64,000 nucleotides of DNA, taken from contig NC_010571.1 in NCBI RefSeq assembly GCF_000019965.1, positions 1,364,001 to 1,428,000 of the forward strand. The letters run 5' to 3'. Below, in pieces: positions 6,853-40,396 of this stretch. The translations under genes were made by a program, and so were the position numbers. Every line of letters starts with the position of its first letter. Position 1 is the stretch's first letter. This DNA is from Opitutus terrae PB90-1 (GTDB lineage: Bacteria > Verrucomicrobiota > Verrucomicrobiia > Opitutales > Opitutaceae). The notes below the pieces were generated by a model, which was not told where the DNA came from, did no database searches, and saw only the letters and a program-made list of their open reading frames with translations.

Positions 6853-6891
6853 TTGTCATGGCGCACGTGCCTGCCATCTTCGGCGAGAGCG

Positions 6892-6912
6892 GCCGGGGTC
6901 AGCGACCCCGGC
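6892..6912. repeat. GC palindrome of the CTAC-framed family near the glgE start
   Basis: GCCGGGGTC and GACCCCGGC form a perfect 9-bp stem around an AGC loop, followed by TACAA. The same GCCGGGGTC/GACCCCGGC stem recurs at 28262-28282 inside the RND pump gene. It sits upstream of the conserved part of GlgE, so the longer upstream frame would translate it. This is one reason the glgE start was placed at 6972. Confidence 0.75.
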
Positions 6913-6971
6913 TACAACCGCGGGATGCTCACCGGCCTGCCATCTCCGGCCACTACGACGGTCGGTGCCGC

Positions 6972-8975
6972 GTGATCATCGAAGGCGTGACGCCGCAGCT
7001 CGACGGCGGGCGCTATCCGATCAAGCGCGTGCTCGGCGAGGAAGTCGTCGTCGAAGCGGATATTTTCGCCGACGGACATGATTCACTGTCGGCGCGGCTG
7101 CTGTATCGAGTTGAGGGAGCGGGTGAGAGGGAAAACGAGAACGAGAACGAGAAAGAGAACGAGGATGAGTGGAAGGAGGTGGAGATGGTGGCGGTGGGCA
7201 ACGACCGCTGGCGGGCGGCGTTCCCGATCGAGCAACTCGGTCGCTACCGCTACACGGTCGAAGGCTGGGTCGACCACTTCAAGACCTGGACGCACGACTT
7301 CGAGAAGAAGGTTGCGGCCGCGCAGGACGTGCATGTGGACTTGCTGATCGGAGCCGAGCTCGCGCGGACGGCGGCGCGGAAGGCGAGCGGCGCGGATCGC
7401 GCGCTGTTGGAGCAATGGGCCGGCGAACTGGCCGGTGATCAGGATGCGGCGCGGCGGATCGCGCGGGCGCGTGATGCGGTCGCATTGGCGCTGATGCTGC
7501 GTTATCCGGATCGCTCACTCGCGACGCGCTACGATCAAGAACTCGTCGTCTGGGCCGAGCCGGTCCGCGCGCGCACCGGCGCTTGGTATGAACTGTTCCC
7601 CCGGTCGATGGGCGAGGGAGAGCGACACGGGACGCTGCGCGACGTGGAGGCCCAGTTGCCCCGGATCGCGGAAATGGGATTCGACGTGCTCTATCTGCCG
7701 CCGATCCATCCGATCGGTTATGCATTTCGGAAAGGCCGCAACAACTCGCCCGAGGCCGCCCCGGAGGATCCGGGCAGTCCATGGGGCATCGGCAGTCCGG
7801 AGGGCGGACACAAGTCGATCCACCCGCAGCTCGGGACGCTGGAGGATTTTCAGCGGCTGCTAACGCGCGCCCGTGAATTGCAGATCGAGATCGCGCTCGA
7901 TATCGCGCTGCAGTGTTCGCCGGACCATCCTTACGTGCGCGAGCATCCGGAGTGGTTCAAGCACCGGCCCGACGGCTCGATTCAATACGCCGAGAATCCG
8001 CCGAAGAAATACCAGGACATCTATCCCTTCGATTTCGAGACCAGCGCGTGGCGCGAGCTGTGGCAGGAGGCGAAGAGCGTCATCGAGCACTGGATCGAGC
8101 AGGGCGTGACGATTTTCCGGGTCGATAATCCGCACACGAAGGCGTTTCCCTTCTGGGAGTGGTGCATCGGCGAGCTGAAGCGCGCGCGGCCCGAGCTGAT
8201 CTTCCTGGCGGAGGCGTTCACGCGGCCGAAGGTGAAATACAACCTCGCGAAGCTCGGGTTCACGCAGTCCTACAATTATTTCCCCTGGCGCAATACGAGT
8301 GAGGAGTTGCGCGAGTATCTCACGCATCTCACGCGCACGACCGTGCGGGAATTTTTCCGGCCGAACCTGTGGCCGAATACGCCTGACATCCTGCCGCAGG
8401 CGCTGCAGTTCGGCGGCCGGCCGGCGTTCATGGCGCGACTCGTCCTGGCGGCAACGCTCGGCGCGAGCTACGGGATCTACGGGCCGGCTTACGAGATGTG
8501 CGTGAACGCGCCGCTGAAACCCGGCGGCGAGGAGTATCTCGATTCGGAAAAATACGAGATCAAGGTCTGGAACCTCAACGAACCCGACAGCCTGCAGCCG
8601 CTGATCACGCGGGTGAACGCGATCCGCCGCGAGAATCCGGCGCTGCACAGCAACGACCGGCTGGCGTTTCACGCGACCGACAACCCGCAGCTGCTCGCCT
8701 ACAGCAAGCGCACCGCGGACCGCGACAACGTGATCCTCACGGTCGTGAACCTCGATCCGCACAACACGCAGGAGGGACGCACCGCGCTCGATCTGGCCGA
8801 GCTCGGGGTCGAACCGAAGGACACGTTCCAGGTGCACGATCTGCTGACCGGCGCGCGCTACTTGTGGCGCGGCGCGGAGAACTTCGTCCGGCTCGATCCG
8901 CGGCACATTCCTGCGGCGGTCTACCGCGTGGCCCGCCACGTCCGCTCCGAATACGAATTCGATTACTTCATGTGA
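6972..8975 (+). CDS. glgE: Alpha-1,4-glucan:maltose-1-phosphate maltosyltransferase (GH13_3)
   Basis: GlgE moves maltosyl units from maltose-1-phosphate onto alpha-1,4-glucan in the cytoplasm. The N-domain opens VIIEGVTPQLDGGRYPIKR, the usual GlgE start. The GH13 barrel shows WYELFPRS, VLYLPPIHPIG, IALDIALQCSPDHPYV, the nucleophile Asp in IFRVDNPHTK, the acid Glu in IFLAEAFTRP, and TPDIL. I chose the GTG at 6972. The frame stays open to an ATG at 6858, but those 38 codons run through a palindromic repeat and have no GlgE-like sequence. An extra acidic stretch (GERENENENEKENEDE, 7125-7170) interrupts the N-domain loop between SARLLYRVEG and WKEVEM; its DNA belongs to a dispersed repeat. The TreS-maltokinase gene downstream supplies the substrate. 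Confidence 0.95.
   Translation: MIIEGVTPQLDGGRYPIKRVLGEEVVVEADIFADGHDSLSARLLYRVEGAGERENENENEKENEDEWKEVEMVAVGNDRWRAAFPIEQLGRYRYTVEGWVDHFKTWTHDFEKKVAAAQDVHVDLLIGAELARTAARKASGADRALLEQWAGELAGDQDAARRIARARDAVALALMLRYPDRSLATRYDQELVVWAEPVRARTGAWYELFPRSMGEGERHGTLRDVEAQLPRIAEMGFDVLYLPPIHPIGYAFRKGRNNSPEAAPEDPGSPWGIGSPEGGHKSIHPQLGTLEDFQRLLTRARELQIEIALDIALQCSPDHPYVREHPEWFKHRPDGSIQYAENPPKKYQDIYPFDFETSAWRELWQEAKSVIEHWIEQGVTIFRVDNPHTKAFPFWEWCIGELKRARPELIFLAEAFTRPKVKYNLAKLGFTQSYNYFPWRNTSEELREYLTHLTRTTVREFFRPNLWPNTPDILPQALQFGGRPAFMARLVLAATLGASYGIYGPAYEMCVNAPLKPGGEEYLDSEKYEIKVWNLNEPDSLQPLITRVNAIRRENPALHSNDRLAFHATDNPQLLAYSKRTADRDNVILTVVNLDPHNTQEGRTALDLAELGVEPKDTFQVHDLLTGARYLWRGAENFVRLDPRHIPAAVYRVARHVRSEYEFDYFM
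7125..7170 (+). repeat. GAGAAC/GAGAAA hexamer element, translated within glgE
   Basis: This purine-rich run of GAGAAC and GAGAAA-like hexamers is read in frame as an acidic, Glu/Asn-rich insert in GlgE. The same hexamers form inverted repeats between genes at 48385-48470, 49438-49530 and 51812-51893. Only one arm is present here, so no hairpin forms. Composition differs sharply from the surrounding GC-rich codons. Confidence 0.85.
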
Positions 8976-9029: not shown

Positions 9030-9102
9030 GTAGGGCCGGCGCTTGCCGCCGGCCGCGAACGCCACGGTTGGCAAACGGCTGCCGGCGAGCGGCAGCCCTA
9101 CA
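9030..9102. repeat. GTAGGG...CCCTAC-framed double palindrome between glgE and treS
   Basis: The outer ends are GTAGGGC and GCCCTAC. Two inner hairpins follow: a GGCCGGCG-type stem and a GGCTGCCG...CGGCAGCC stem. It lies in the 203-bp gap between glgE and the TreS-maltokinase gene. It would be translated as spurious N-terminal residues if the upstream in-frame ATG at 9068 were used. A related element is at 40272-40354. Confidence 0.8.
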
Positions 9103-12561: not shown

Positions 12562-12634
12562 GGAGCGGCAGGCCTCCTTGCCTGCCGGCTCCCGCCGTGC
12601 GCTGCGGCAGGCACTGGACGCCTGCCGCTACAGA
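12562..12634. repeat. Double GGCAGGC palindrome in a convergent gap
   Basis: Two hairpins with GGCAGG/CCTGCC stems, the second ending CTGCCGCTACA. They fill the 95-bp gap between the converging treS and MerR-type genes, so they could act as a two-way terminator. The same stem sequence recurs at 33207-33233. Confidence 0.75.
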
Positions 12635-26598: not shown

Positions 26599-29500
26599 TT
26601 ATGAACCGGTGACCGATGGCTCGGCGGCCGAGGCAGGGCGAATCGCGGCCGGCCGGGCGCGGAAGCGCGATCGGAAGGCATTGACCACCTTCACCCGGAG
26701 CCGGTCGAGCGCGAGGTAAATCACGGGCACGGTGAACAGCGTGAGCAGCTGGCTCACGACGAGCCCGCCGGCGATCGCCAGGCCCAGCGGCCGCCGCATT
26801 TCCACGCCTTCGCCGGTTGCGAACACCAACGGCAGCGAACCGAGCAGCGCGCAGAGATTGGTCATCAGGATCGGCCGCAACCGCAGCTGCGCGGCTTCGA
26901 AGATCGCCCGGCGCGGCGCCCAGCCGTGCTTCCGTTCGGCGGCGAGCGCAAAGTCGATCATCAGGATCGCGTTCTTCATCACGATTCCGATCAGGAGGAA
27001 CAGCCCGAGCAGCGCGATCAGCGTGAACTCCGTGCCCGTGAGCCGCAACGCGAGCAGCGCGCCGAGCCCGGCCGACGGTAGCGTCGAGAGGATCGTCAGC
27101 GGATGCACCGTGCTTTCGTAGAGGATGCCGAGCACCAGATAAACGGCGACGAGCACGACGAGGATGAGCAGCGGCTGGCGCTTCAGGCTTTGCTGGAACG
27201 TCTGTGCGTTGCCGGCCAGTGTGCCCTGGATTTCGTTGGGCAACATGATCTGCGCCATCGCGCGATCGATCGCGGCGAGGCCCTGCTCGAGTGACACGCC
27301 GGGCGCGAGCGAGAACCCGACGTTTTCCGAGGCGAACTGCTCGCGATGACCCACGCGATCGTTGACCAGCGAGAACTCGTAACGCGTGAACGCCGAGAGC
27401 GGCACGCGCTGGCCGTTGGTGCCGATGACCTGAACCTGATCGAGCACGACCGGATCCTCCGTGTAGATCGGATCGAGCTCCATCACGACGCGATATTGGT
27501 TCAGGTGATCGTAGATCGTGGAAATCTGCCGCTGGCTGAAGGAATTGTTCAGCACCTGGGTGACCATCTGCATGTCGACGCCCAGCCGCCGCGCCGCCTC
27601 GCGGTCGACGGTGAGCATTACCTGCTTCGCGCCTTCGTCGGTCGGGCCGTCCACATCGGTGAGCTCGGGCAGGCTCTGCATCGCCGTCGCGACCTTCGGC
27701 GCCCACTTGCGCAGCAGCGCGAGATCGTCCGAGAGCAGCGTGAAATCATAGGAACCGGCGTCGGACGTGCGCGGCATCTGGATATCTTGCGACACGCTGA
27801 GCCACATCATGCCGCCGGCGACGGGCGGTACTTTCAGTCGGAGACGATTGACGACCTCGCTCGCCGGCTCGCCGCGTTCTGAAAGCGGTTTGAGGCGGAT
27901 CATCATCCAGCCGTTGCTCGTGCCGCTGCCGCCGCCGCTCATGCCGACGACGTCCGCGACCGCGGGATCCTTGAGCAGCAGCTGCCGGAACGTCTCGATC
28001 TTCGGCTGCATGATCTGAAATGAGAAACCGTCGTCGCCGCGCACCCAGCCGTTGAGCTGGCCGGTGTCCTGTTCGGGCAGGAAGCCTTTCGGAATCGTGA
28101 TGTAGAGCGCGACGTTCAGCGCGATCGTGCCGCCGAAGATCAGCAGCATCAGCGTCGGATGGCGCAGCACCCACGTGAGCCCGCGGGCGTAGCCGCGACG
28201 AACCGCGTCGAAGGAGGCTTCGCTGTAATGGCGGAGGGAAAAGCGGTGGCGCGAGGTGTAGCCGGGGTCGCGGACCCCGGCCCCGGGCTCACCGAGCCCG
28301 GCTACACCGGGCGGACGGCTCGGCGCGCCGTCCCTACTGCCCGCGGCGTCCTTGGCCTTCAGCCACCGCGAGCACAGGCTCGGCGTGAGGGTGAGCGACA
28401 CGGCGAGCGAGACCAGCATGGCCGCGGCGAGCGTGATGGAGAATTCCCGGAACAGTCGCTCGACGAGCCCACCCATGAACAGGATCGAGACGAAGACCGT
28501 CACGAGCGAGAGCGTCATCGCGAGCAGCGTGAACCCGACCTCGCCGGCACCCTTGAGGGCGGCCCGCACCGGGGAGAGCCCGCGTTCGATGTGGCGCGAA
28601 ATGTTTTCCAGCACCACGATGGCATCGTCGACGACGAGGCCCGCGGCGACGATCAGCGCCATGAGCGAGAGGTTGTTCAGCGAGAATCCGTAAAGATACA
28701 TGATCGCGAACGTCGCGATCAGCGAAACGGGAATCGCGAGGCTGGGGATCAGCGCGGCGCGCGGACTCCCGAGGAAGGCGAGCACGACGAGCATCACCAG
28801 TGTGGCGGCGAGCATGAGCGTGAACCGCGCCTCGCGCAGCGTGGCGCGGATGCCTGGCGAGCGGTCCATGACGAGCGCGAGATCGGCATCGGCCGGCACG
28901 AGCGCGCGCAGCCCGGGCAGCTGCGCGTTGATGGCATCGATGGTGGCGGCGATGTTGGCGCCGGGCTGGCGGCGGACCATCAGCAGCACCGCCGCGCGGT
29001 CATTGTGGAATCCGCTCGCGTAGCGGTTCTCGACCGAGTCCGTGACGGCGGCCACATCGCTGAGCCGCACCGGCGCGCCGTCGCGGTAGCGGACGATGAG
29101 CGACCGGTATTCCGCGGCCTTGCGGAGCTGGCCACTGACCTGCACCTGCCAGTGGCGATCGCCGTGCTCGATCAGGCCGCGCGGCCGGAGCGAGTTGGTC
29201 TGGGCGATCGCCTGGCGCACCTCGTCGAGGGCGATGCCATAGTGGGCGAGCGCGTTCGGATTGAGCTGCACGCGCACGGCGGGGAGCGCGCTGCCCCAGA
29301 CCTGCACCTCGCCGACGCCGGTGACCTGGGAGAGTTTCTGCGCGAGCACGGTGGAGGCGACGTCGTAGAGCTCGCCGGGCGCCAGGTTGGGCGAACTCAG
29401 CGCCAGCGCCATGATTGGCGCCGACGAGGGGTTGACCTTCCGATAGCTCGGATTGCGCGGCATGCCGGAGGGCAGCTGGCCGCGCGCGGCGTTGATGGCA

Positions 29501-29835
29501 GCCTGCACGTCGCGCGCGGCGGCGTCGATGTCGCGGTCGAAGTCGAACTCGAGCGTGATGCCGGTGGAGCCCTGCGTGCTGTTGGAGCGGATCGCGGTGA
29601 CGCCGGCGATGCTGCCGAGCGCGCGCTCGAGTGGCGTGGCCACGCTCGACGCCATCGTCTCGGGGCTCGCACCGGGCAGCTGTGCGTAAACCTGAATTGT
29701 TGGGAAATCCACCTGCGGCAGCGGCGCGACCGGGAGCAGTCCGTAAGCGAGCGCGCCCAGCAGCACCACGCCGAGCGCGATCAGCGCGCTCGCGACGGGT
29801 CGGCGGATGAAGGGGCGGGAGAGGTTCAGGTTCAT
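26599..29835 (-). CDS. RND efflux transporter, second permease (MdtC-like)
   Basis: 1078 residues, the usual RND size. It starts [48 protein letters not shown]-like, with 12 membrane helices and two large periplasmic loops. The proton-relay motif GLVVDDAIVVLENI (helix 4) and the Lys in GIVMKNAILMIDFALAAER (helix 10) are intact. It pairs with the other permease at 30011-33136 and the adaptor at 33309-34535, as in MdtABC, and should form a heterotrimeric drug or metabolite pump. Oddity: residues about 500-530, in the cytoplasmic loop between helices 6 and 7, are encoded by an in-frame palindromic repeat (28257-28308). No outer-membrane TolC-like gene is next to it. Confidence 0.95.
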   Translation of the reverse strand: MNLNLSRPFIRRPVASALIALGVVLLGALAYGLLPVAPLPQVDFPTIQVYAQLPGASPETMASSVATPLERALGSIAGVTAIRSNSTQGSTGITLEFDFDRDIDAAARDVQAAINAARGQLPSGMPRNPSYRKVNPSSAPIMALALSSPNLAPGELYDVASTVLAQKLSQVTGVGEVQVWGSALPAVRVQLNPNALAHYGIALDEVRQAIAQTNSLRPRGLIEHGDRHWQVQVSGQLRKAAEYRSLIVRYRDGAPVRLSDVAAVTDSVENRYASGFHNDRAAVLLMVRRQPGANIAATIDAINAQLPGLRALVPADADLALVMDRSPGIRATLREARFTLMLAATLVMLVVLAFLGSPRAALIPSLAIPVSLIATFAIMYLYGFSLNNLSLMALIVAAGLVVDDAIVVLENISRHIERGLSPVRAALKGAGEVGFTLLAMTLSLVTVFVSILFMGGLVERLFREFSITLAAAMLVSLAVSLTLTPSLCSRWLKAKDAAGSRDGAPSRPPGVAGLGEPGAGVRDPGYTSRHRFSLRHYSEASFDAVRRGYARGLTWVLRHPTLMLLIFGGTIALNVALYITIPKGFLPEQDTGQLNGWVRGDDGFSFQIMQPKIETFRQLLLKDPAVADVVGMSGGGSGTSNGWMMIRLKPLSERGEPASEVVNRLRLKVPPVAGGMMWLSVSQDIQMPRTSDAGSYDFTLLSDDLALLRKWAPKVATAMQSLPELTDVDGPTDEGAKQVMLTVDREAARRLGVDMQMVTQVLNNSFSQRQISTIYDHLNQYRVVMELDPIYTEDPVVLDQVQVIGTNGQRVPLSAFTRYEFSLVNDRVGHREQFASENVGFSLAPGVSLEQGLAAIDRAMAQIMLPNEIQGTLAGNAQTFQQSLKRQPLLILVVLVAVYLVLGILYESTVHPLTILSTLPSAGLGALLALRLTGTEFTLIALLGLFLLIGIVMKNAILMIDFALAAERKHGWAPRRAIFEAAQLRLRPILMTNLCALLGSLPLVFATGEGVEMRRPLGLAIAGGLVVSQLLTLFTVPVIYLALDRLRVKVVNAFRSRFRARPAAIRPASAAEPSVTGS
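28257..28308. repeat. GTGTAGCCGGG...CCCGGCTACAC palindrome in frame inside an RND gene
   Basis: The outer inverted ends GTGTAGCCGGG and CCCGGCTACAC enclose two hairpins: GCCGGGGTC/GACCCCGGC and CGGGCTC/GAGCCCG. The 52 bp are translated on the minus strand as part of GVAGLGEPGAGVRDPGYT. The left hairpin stem is identical to that at 6892-6912. This is a copy of a mostly intergenic repeat inside coding sequence. Confidence 0.85.
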
Positions 29836-29865: not shown

Positions 29866-29987
29866 TGGCAGGGGCGTCCCGCCCGTGGACGGCGCTCCGC
29901 GCCGCAGCCACCGGCTAGACGACCATGGAGCGACACGGGCAAGATGCCCGTGCCACGAGAAGCCCGCCGGGGACGGCGGGCTCCACC
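29866..29987. repeat. Cluster of palindromes between the two RND genes
   Basis: At least three palindromes fill the 175-bp gap: GGCGCTCCGCGCC near 29891, CACGGGCAAGATGCCCGTG near 29933-29951, and GCCCGCCGGGGACGGCGGGC at 29962-29981 followed by TCCACC. The last type recurs twice near 59518-59589. A hairpin-rich spacer inside an operon may set the expression ratio of the two permeases. Confidence 0.75.
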
Positions 29988-30010: not shown

Positions 30011-33000
30011 TCATTTCGCCATCCCCTCCACGGGCAGCGGCTCGGCGAGAACGCCTCGCCCTACCGGCGATTCGGCGCCACGGCCGTTGCGCATCCGCCG
30101 CCCGAGCCGATCGAAGAAAAGATACACCACCGGCGTGGTGAACAGCGTGAGCACCTGGCTTACGAGCAACCCGCCCACCATCACGAGGCCCAACGGTTGG
30201 CGCAGTTCGGCGCCGGAGCCCGTCGACAACATCAAAGGCAGCGCGCCGAACAGCGCGGCGAGCGTTGTCATCAGGATCGGCCGGAACCGCAGCAGCGCGG
30301 CCTGGCGAATTGCGGCGACGGGCGAGAGCTTTTCCTTCCGCTCCGCCTCGAGTGCGAAGTCGATCATCATGATCCCGTTCTTTTTCACGAGACCGATGAG
30401 CAGGATGATGCCGATCACCACGATCATATCCAGCGGCCGGCCGGTAATCCACAGCGCGAGCAGCGCGCCGACGGTTGCCGAGGGCAGCGTCGAGAGAATC
30501 GTGATCGGATGGATGCTGCTCTCGTAGAGGACGCCGAGCACGATGTACATCGTGACGACGGCCGCGAGGATCAGCCACAGCGTGCTCGAGAGCGAGGAAC
30601 GGAACGCGTGCGCCGCGCCCTGGAAGCGGAGCTCGATCGCGGCCGGCAACTGCAGGTCGCGCGCGGCGCGTTCGATCGCCGCGACCGCCTCGCCGAGCGA
30701 CGCGTTGCCGCCGAGGTTGAACGAGATCGTCGCGGCGGGAAACTGGCCGACGTGATTGATCAGCAGCGGCGCGCGCCGTTCGCTCATGCGGCCGATGCTC
30801 GACAGCGGCACCGGCGGGCCGTTGTCCGGCTTCACGTAGACATGCTCCAGCGCCTCGGGCCCGGTGACCAGTCGCGGGTCCACCTCGAGGATCACGCGAT
30901 ACTGGCTCGCCTGCGTGAACAGCGTGGAAATCTGCCGCTGGCCGAACGCGCTGTAGAGCGCGTCGTCGATCTCCGCGACGCTGATGCCGAGCCGGCTGGC
31001 GGCATCGCGGTTGATGTCGAAGTACGCCTGCAGCCCCTGATTCTGGAGATCGGTGGCGACGTCGGCCAACTGGGGCTGTTGCCGCAGATGCGCGACGAAT
31101 TGCGGCACCCACTCGCCGAGCAGCTCCTCATCGGGACTCGTGAGCATGAACTGAAACTGCGTGCGGCTGACGCGATCCTCGATCGTCAGCTCCTGCACCG
31201 GTTGCAGATACAGCGAGATGCCCGGCACCTCGCGCGCGTGCGCCTGCAGCCGGGCGATGATTTCGGTGGCCGATTCGTCGCGCTCATCGTGCGACTTCAG
31301 GTTGATGAGCATCCGGCCGCTGTTGAGCGTGGCGTTGGTGCCATCGACGCCGATGAACGACGAGAGGCTGCGCACGGCCGGATCCTCGAGGATCTTCGCG
31401 CCGAGCGCCGCCTGCCGCTCGGCCATCGCGGCGAACGAGATCGACTGCGGAGCCTCGGTGACGGCTTGCAGCGCCGCATTGTCCTGCACCGGGAAAAAGC
31501 CTTTCGGCACGATCACGTAAAGCGCCGCGGTGAGCGCCAGCGTGCCGACCGTCACGCCGAGCGCGAACCGCTGGTGCGCGAGCACCCAGTCGAGCCATTC
31601 GCCGTATTTCGCGATCACGCGTTCGAGCAGGTCGGGCTTGGCCGCATCGTGGGCGTGCTGCGCGTGCAGCATCCGGCCGCACATCATCGGCGTGAGCGTG
31701 AGCGACACGACCAGGGAAATCAGGATCGAGACGGCGAGCGTGATCGCGAATTCGTGAAACAGCCGGCCGACGACGTCGCCCATGAACAGCAGCGGAATCA
31801 GCACCGCGATGAGCGAGAGCGTCAGTGAGACGAGCGTGAACCCGATCTGCGACGCGCCTTTCAACGCGGCTTCCATCGCGGAAAACCCCTGCTCGCGATA
31901 ACGCGCGATGTTTTCCATCATCACGATCGCGTCGTCGACGACGAAGCCGGTCGCGATCGTGAGCGCCATCAGCGTGAGAATGTTGAGCGAAAATCCGGCG
32001 AGATACATCACGCCGAACGTGCCGATGAGCGACAGCGGTACGGCGATGCTGGGGATGATCGTGGCGGAGACGTTGCGCAGAAAGAGGAACGTCACCAGCA
32101 CCACGAGTCCGACGGAGAAAACGAGTTCGTGCTGCACGGAGCGGACGGACGCGCGGATGCTCTGGGTGCGATCGGTGAGGACGGTGAGCTCGGCGGCGGC
32201 GGGCAGGGTCGCGGACAGCTGCGGCAGCAGCGCCCGCACGCGATCGACGACCTCGATGACGTTGGCGCCGGGCTGACGCTGCACGTTGACCAGCACCGCG
32301 GGCAGGGTGTCGGCCCACGCCGCGAGCCGGCGGTCCTCGGCGGCGTTGGTGATCCGTGCGACCTCGCCCAGCCGCAGCGGCGCGCCGTCGCGCCACGCGA
32401 TGATCAAGTCGCGATATTCCGCGGGCGAGCGGAGCTGGTCGTTCGCATCCATGAGGATGCTGCGGATCGGCCCGTCGAAACTGCCCTTGGGCTGGTTGAC
32501 GCTCGCGGCGGCGATCGCGGAGCGGATGGAGGCGAGGTTGAGTCCGCGCGCGGCGAGTTCGGCGGGGTTCACCTGCACGCGCACGGCCGGTCGCTGGCCG
32601 CCGGCGAGGCTGACCATGCCCACGCCGGGGATCTGCGCGAGTTTTTGGGCGATCCGCGTGTCGACCAAATCGTGCACCTGCGGCAACGGCAGCGTGGCCG
32701 AGGTGACGGCGAGCGTGAGGATGGGCGTGTCGGCCGGGTTGACCTTGCGATAAACGGGCGGAGCCGGCAGGTCGTTGGGCAGCAGGTTATCGGCGGCGGC
32801 GATCGCGGCCTGCACCTCCTGCTCGGCGACCCCCATCGAAATCTCCAGGGAGAACTGCAGCGTGACGACCGACGCGCCGCCCGAGCTGGAGGAGGACATC
32901 TGACTGAGGCCAGGGATTTGTCCGAACCTCCGCTCCAGCGGCGCGGTGATGGCGCTGGCGGTGACCTCCGGGCTCGCGCCGGGATAGAAGGTGAAGACCT

Positions 33001-33136
33001 GGATCGTCGGGAAGTCCACCTGCGGCAGTGCGGCGACCGGCAAGAGCCGATAGGCCATGATGCCGGACAGCAGCAACGCCACCATCAGCAGGGTGGTCGC
33101 CACCGGGCGCTGAATGAAAGGGCGGGAGAGACTCAT
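30011..33136 (-). CDS. RND efflux transporter, first permease (MdtB-like)
   Basis: 1041 residues. It starts [25 protein letters not shown] and keeps the RND signatures: [11 protein letters not shown], the helix-4 Asp pair in [21 protein letters not shown], and the helix-10 Lys in [19 protein letters not shown]. The two periplasmic porter/docking loops are at about 40-340 and 560-860. It is transcribed after the adaptor and before the second permease, with 172-174-bp repeat-filled gaps. MdtBC-type pumps work as B2C heterotrimers, so both permeases are probably needed. The substrate is unknown. Confidence 0.95.
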
Positions 33137-33206
33137 GCGAGACGGAGTCGAGAGACTGGAGCCGAGAGTCCAGCGCCGAGGGCTGAGAGGCTAAGAAGAC
33201 CATCTC

Positions 33207-33233
33207 GGCAGGCAGAGACGCCTGCCGCTACGA
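33207..33233. repeat. GGCAGGC palindrome between adaptor and permease genes
   Basis: CGGCAGGCAGAGACGCCTGCCG followed by CTACGAG: a CGGCAGGC/GCCTGCCG stem with AGAGAC as loop. It is the same family as 12562-12634, and here lies within the RND operon. Confidence 0.7.
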
Positions 33234-40271: not shown

Positions 40272-40396
40272 GTAGGGCCGGCGCTCGCCGCCGGCCGCGA
40301 GAGTGGACGAGGCGCCATGTGCCTCCTCGGCCGCCGGTGAACGGCGGCCCTACGAAGGGACACCGAAATGTAGGGCCGGTGAACGGCGGCCTTACG
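40272..40396. repeat. GTAGGGCCG palindromes in a convergent gap, overlapping a stop codon
   Basis: One element (40272-40353) has outer ends GTAGGGCCG and CGGCCCTAC and inner GCCGGCG stems. A second, shorter copy (40370-40396) has GTAGGGCCG and CGGCCTTAC. The second overlaps the stop codon (40392-40394) of the converging histidine kinase gene. The first copy resembles 9030-9102. Confidence 0.8.

Follow-up and report, generated by a model that had tools for sequence, protein, structure and literature searches.

In-frame GTAG REP hairpins in an MdtC-like RND efflux pump gene of Opitutus terrae

What is a 52-bp palindrome doing within the reading frame of an RND efflux pump gene, and how did it come to be there? 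The locus lies in a 64,000-nucleotide stretch of the Opitutus terrae PB90-1 chromosome (the window), and an earlier note on this DNA had described the palindrome as a mostly intergenic element translated as part of the pump. We analyzed the insert, its copies in the rest of the genome, the homologues of the host gene and the putative mobiliser. The features of the window on which the argument rests are listed below.

26599..29835, minus strand: host gene, MdtC-like RND multidrug efflux permease, 1078 aa, frame intact
30011..33136, minus strand: partner RND permease gene, upstream of the host gene, without the insert
28237..28350, minus strand: linker of 38 codons (aa 496-533) containing the entire REP cluster; 8 codons in the same-genus orthologue
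28256..28307: 52-bp palindrome, a head-to-head dimer of two GTAG REPs with a 2-bp spacer
28258..28280, plus strand: REP unit of the GGTC type, hairpin GTAGCCGGGGTC-GCG-GACCCCGG
28283..28305, minus strand: REP unit of the GCTC type, hairpin GTAGCCGGGCTC-GGT-GAGCCCGG
28313..28337, minus strand: third GTAG hairpin, of a different family, GTAGGGACGGC..GCCGTCC, within the same insert
6893..6915, minus strand: further GGTC-type REP copy, at residues 12-19 of the called ORF 6858-8975

The insert in the pump gene

The host gene certainly belongs to the RND family. It scored 1318.5 bits against the NCBIfam MdtC model NF007905 and 1154.5 bits against the general RND permease 2 model NF033617, under the respective cut-offs of 1774 and 1250, and because the first of these is the MdtC equivalog cut-off, the MdtC name is approximate and we call the product, an RND permease close to MdtB/MdtC, 'MdtC-like' only. 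The reading frame is open across the REP site. The matches to both models were split in two, with the better stretch stopping at residue 497-498, and the best solved relative, MdtB (PDB 9lyq), aligned with residues 6-494 and 529-1052. Therefore, the insert sits between TM6 and the helix preceding TM7, in the loop to which the earlier note had assigned it; we assume the TM numbering and the cytoplasmic side of this loop from AcrB-type/RND pump topology. The order of the partner gene and the host gene was also found in 4 other genomes (G001, G007, G013, and G018). Two GTGG-tagged hairpins (29934-29956 and 29961-29986) are located between the 2 RND genes; GTGG is given as the tag of most O. terrae GTAG-20 elements in the report of Di Nocera, De Gregorio and Rocco 2013 (PMC3733652).

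The palindrome, which reads GVAGLGEPGAGVRDPGYT on the coding strand, had been placed at 28257-28308; its length of 52 bp was right, but it begins and ends one base to the left. Each unit of the dimer consists of an 8-bp stem and a 3-base loop, with the GTAG tags facing outward. The insert had been taken for this single element, and a mobile palindrome in frame is indeed present, but the cluster comprises 3 REPs of 2 families, and the third hairpin had been missed. This hairpin (stem 7, loop 7) starts 5 bases past the dimer and encodes SRDGAPSRP in phase 1 of the translated ORF. The 3 hairpins and the bases between them occupy 82 nt (28256-28337), and all are read in frame within the predicted protein, for which the tryptic peptides DGAPSRPPGVAGLGEPGAGVR and DPGYTSR are predicted from the insert. 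All 3 units have an unpaired GTAG at the base of a short stem-loop, as in the GTAG REP superfamily, for which Table 1 of PMC3733652 gives stems of 5-13 bp and loops of 2-20. The further copy in the window had been reported as an identical stem at 6892-6912; it lies at 6893-6915 on the minus strand, and the loop is the sole difference from the unit at 28258-28280. The true start of the ORF in which it was called may be downstream of this copy.

The homologue search covered 38 genomes including that of O. terrae, gave matches in all of them, and returned 29 non-self loci, 19 of which were used for the linker alignment (L052, L055, L056, and L058-L064 were left out). With 31 to 80% identity to the host protein, the 19 homologues include several paralogues or distant relatives. 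Between two fixed columns, the linker following TM6 has 60 residues in the window protein and 29-37 in the homologues, and none of the 19 carries the insert, so that the case raised in the earlier note against a mobile element, orthologues having the insert at the protein level without the palindrome, did not occur. The same-genus orthologue (G001, 80% identity over the aligned part) has the linker CSRWLKAK-PVQPRRGG-LRY, and the host gene exceeds it by exactly 90 nt, that is 30 residues (38 against 8), which bears out the in-frame insert of roughly 30 residues proposed earlier. The difference from the 3 next orthologues (L039-L041) is 31 residues. An apparent frameshift near residue 130, far from the insert, divides the G001 orthologue into open frames of 158 and 970 aa, and the loop is too diverged at the nucleotide level to read a target-site duplication or an empty site. 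Among 100 genomes of the family, the exact REP was found in 20 and was absent from the same-genus genome. Because the insert is absent from the homologues and the REP from this relative, the insertion probably came after the 2 species split.

REP copies across the genome and in other genes

The genome was scanned as one contig of 5,957,605 bases (5.96 Mb). Allowing up to 1 mismatch, we found 79 GGTC-type and 81 GCTC-type matches (160 in total), and none with the reversed-pattern control; the matches correspond to 156 sites, as 4 perfect palindromes were matched on both strands. A looser pattern gave 70 and 95 matches versus 3 and 2 in the control, and the family of the third hairpin has 8 strict copies, again with none in the reversed-pattern control. 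In the window alone, an 11-base arm with up to 1 mismatch gave 5 matches versus 1.09 expected, a number reached by 2 of 100 shuffles. Thus, the window speaks only modestly against a chance origin of the palindrome, while the genome-wide evidence against it is clear, and with reversed-pattern controls of 0 a chance palindrome is ruled out.

Grouping the 160 matches with the 8 third-family copies gave 123 clusters. A head-to-head GCTC/GGTC pair occurs in 37 of them and a head-to-tail pair in one; 4 apparent pairs of like units (spacer -19) are each one palindrome matched on both strands. Genes were called by codon usage, which is not an annotation, on 96 stretches around all 123 clusters. By these calls, 86 clusters are intergenic, in agreement with the mostly intergenic location claimed before, 32 lie inside a called ORF, and 5 cross an ORF edge. 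Since 80% of the 96 stretches is called coding, REP clusters are strongly depleted in coding DNA (clusters treated as independent). Many dispersed and chiefly intergenic copies, and pairs in opposite orientation, are further traits of the GTAG REP superfamily, and both were found here. Other hairpins were observed as well. Another GTAG hairpin, GTAGGGCCGGCGCT.. with its near variants, forms inverted pairs in the window at 9030-9054, 9077-9101, 40272-40296, and 40329-40353, and 2 copies of a GTAGCGGCAGGCGTC.. hairpin (12605-12631 and 33206-33231) represent a further possible REP family.

A listing of the in-frame copies in the genome, which the earlier note had suggested, gave 19 interior clusters in 17 genes, the pump gene of the window included. 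Clusters were regarded as interior when the coding score was above 20 on both sides. By this measure, 13 of the 32 intra-ORF clusters drop out, and 11 of those fall in the first 60 codons. Family searches of the 16 other genes and of one doubtful WD40 gene indicated as hosts UvrA, SucB, LpdA, FtsY, CysJ, RecD2, NAD(P)H-hydrate dehydratase, a CobW-type GTPase, a GldG-like protein, 2 FG-GAP/ASPIC proteins, a TPR protein, and a DUF4450 protein; one REP-bearing host gene had no family match in these searches. The 2 remaining hosts each carry 2 in-frame clusters:

L145:2-4186 = G000:C1:4821378-4825562: PurL (FGAM synthase), two separate in-frame clusters, 5' end cut by the stretch
L131:1408-4506 = G000:C1:4091265-4094363: fused exonuclease-DNA ligase, two in-frame clusters

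Several of the 17 host genes are housekeeping genes. For two of the hosts, LpdA and FtsY, the best alignment to a solved relative has gaps that overlap with the REP-encoded residues. uvrA matches were found near 3.47 and 4.12 Mb; the ratio of these positions (0.84) comes close to that of the O. terrae uvrA ORF numbers 2709 and 3168 in PMC3733652 (0.86), and the order agrees. The uvrA at 4.12 Mb carries one REP dimer at up to 1 mismatch, and no GGTC- or GCTC-type copy was detected at this threshold in the other. A 2007-residue open frame with 2 tandem UvrA copies was observed at G000:C1:3465854-3471709.

Within the 19 interior clusters, every one of the 17 sense copies is read in phase 0, as VAG[VL]x[DE]PG with small variants; this phase avoids the TAG of the tag and the TGA created by most loops. 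Among the 14 antisense copies, phase 0 (PGSxSPAT) is used by 12 and phase 1 by 2, including the window copy. A dimer with its open sense frame, usually the only one, and a spacer of 1 mod 3 reads VAGVxDPGPGSxSPAT, which is rich in Gly, Pro, Ser, and Ala. It is conceivable, although we consider it unlikely, that the REP dimer is a coding-compatible mobile linker: the RAYT described below would go on placing peptides that housekeeping proteins can tolerate, and some of these might acquire a function. Spacers of 1 mod 3 were found in 10 of 12 interior and 10 of 21 intergenic dimers (p = 0.07, not significant; the 4 intergenic pairs with spacer -19 had been dropped beforehand), a bias that is only suggestive as support for such a linker, and the window dimer, with its spacer of 2, belongs to the minority class among interior dimers.

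A putative mobiliser

Four Y1-transposase matches were found in the genome, 3 of them above the Pfam cut-off, and one is a RAYT gene:

G000:C1:2530363-2530881: RAYT gene (L033), NF047646, 100.6 bits against a cut-off of 80

A head-to-head dimer of the GGTC/GCTC REP is located just upstream of this gene and one unit just downstream, so that the RAYT gene is flanked by the same REP as is present in the pump gene, the arrangement of a REPtron. Its closest relatives include members of the Opitutaceae and Opitutia. We inspected the flanks at 18 homologous loci (9 of 38 from one search and 9 of 11 non-own from another), which are 15 distinct loci, as 3 were seen twice, judged by spacing (L161/L219, L168/L225, and L173/L227). 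A GGTC-type unit is present on both sides in 5 of the 15 (L161, L162, L163, L164, and L220; 60-67% identity). Different REPs were found at 8: GTAGGCCAGSTC units at L221 and L222 (59-60%), GTAGGGCGGG-type units at L168, L173, L176, L179, and L228 (50-55%; on one side only at L173), and another unit, on the visible side, at L171 (58%). No clear flanking pair was seen at L223 and L224. These flanks suggest that RAYT and REP tend to vary together among relatives, as is expected for a transposase and its substrate. REP number did not track the presence of a close RAYT across the 100 family genomes, a looser link than expected: G106 and G017 have 132 and 21 REP copies, respectively, and neither has a RAYT match at 1e-10, the best RAYT of G020 (59 copies) is 46% identical, and G074 has a 67% identical RAYT and only 4 copies (G091 was excluded from these exceptions as its RAYT carries another REP). 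Judging from its flanks, this RAYT is likely the mobiliser of the REPs in the pump gene. As to the GTAG hairpin that forms inverted pairs at 9030-9101 and 40272-40353, the unit GTAGGGCCGGCGCTCGCCGCCGGCC is present elsewhere in the genome in 3 copies around a second Y1-transposase gene (L032), and because it surrounds this gene, the two likely form a second REP-RAYT pair.

Origin of the insert and its meaning

Altogether, we hold with high confidence that 3 GTAG REPs, a head-to-head dimer and one unit of a second family, were inserted in frame in the MdtC-like RND gene, most likely as a near-neutral insertion. The REPs would be non-autonomous mobile elements, most likely copied by the RAYT encoded elsewhere in the genome, and the cluster would have entered the pump gene after the split within the genus. 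Its persistence would be owed to three things: the net gain is divisible by three, the sense REP keeps to its usual stop-free frame, and the peptide is placed in a variable loop. A tolerated insertion is the default here and would require no new pump function. The mismatch between REP number and RAYT, the frameshifted G001 orthologue, and the divergence of the loop are reservations on this explanation.

The length and sequence of the linker vary among homologues, and one could suppose that it is an ordinary, fast-evolving pump loop that became palindromic by accident. But these hairpins have 160 matches across the genome, most of them outside genes, and none of the 19 homologues has the insert, which refutes this idea, and we give it practically no weight. 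The insert might instead have been retained because it is useful: an mRNA hairpin could tune how the pump operon is translated or decays, or the peptide could alter the pump. The RNA hairpins are strong (-63.9 kcal/mol, z = -3.13, with 0 of 200 shuffles equally stable), and PMC3733652 speculates in its text on altered activity of repair proteins. However, the hosts are as unrelated as FtsY, SucB, LpdA, UvrA, PurL, RecD2, and the TPR and FG-GAP proteins, and the depletion of clusters in genes is as expected of tolerated survivors, which makes usefulness improbable.

The earlier note had likened the element to the palindromic elements of Rickettsia (RPE). The two are alike in effect, as both are palindromes in frame in protein genes, and this resemblance is what could speak for MITE-like or Rickettsia-type elements instead of GTAG REPs. 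According to PMC3733652, however, RPE-1 is longer, and the intragenic RPE-4 and RPE-6 are CGTC repeats without an associated transposase gene, whereas the pump REPs are short stem-loops with a GTAG tag, form head-to-head dimers, and have a RAYT with a matching flanking REP. Their kin is thus the GTAG/RAYT REP superfamily described in that report, and a MITE-like or Rickettsia-type origin is very improbable. The short GTAG hairpins, the inverted pairs, and the RAYT flanked by the same REP are as in the REP/REPtron and RAYT systems of E. coli and Pseudomonas, which belong to another sequence family and another phylum.

The earlier note knew of no such description for this phylum, a claim that does not hold, since Di Nocera, De Gregorio and Rocco 2013 (PMC3733652) report intragenic GTAG REPs in O. 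terrae. As its text states, O. terrae has the highest number of intragenic GTAG repeats, with REP-bearing ORFs that include uvrA (ORFs 2709 and 3168), DNA ligase, and RNA helicase, and double insertions are reported in uvrA; counted over every species in its list, dimers or groups that encode 20-30 residues make up more than half of the intragenic inserts, and the authors propose neutrality for inserts that fall in flexible linkers or loops. The GTAG-17 elements described there for O. terrae have, as in the pump insert, the GTAG tag and head-to-head dimers 1-2 bp apart; from this textual description, rather than a consensus sequence, the pump-gene dimer would be GTAG-17. The pump gene is unnamed in the main text, where 'efflux' and 'transporter' have no match, and the pump ORF may be among the ORFs with intragenic REPs listed in Additional file 3. 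In the open-licence literature, searches on in-frame REPs of Verrucomicrobia and on intragenic REPIN/RAYT found this report alone. The kind of finding has thus been described already for the phylum and very probably for this genome, and our result adds detail to the 2013 report, as far as its text goes, rather than a new kind.

The pump insert is a clean example of a REP cluster in a conserved gene, with the frame kept and an insertion whose timing can be set against the split within the genus, and it is accompanied by a RAYT/REP pair that appears to vary together across related bacteria. It could help to decide if the peptides encoded by REPs are only tolerated or have a function, a question that the 17 host genes make testable.
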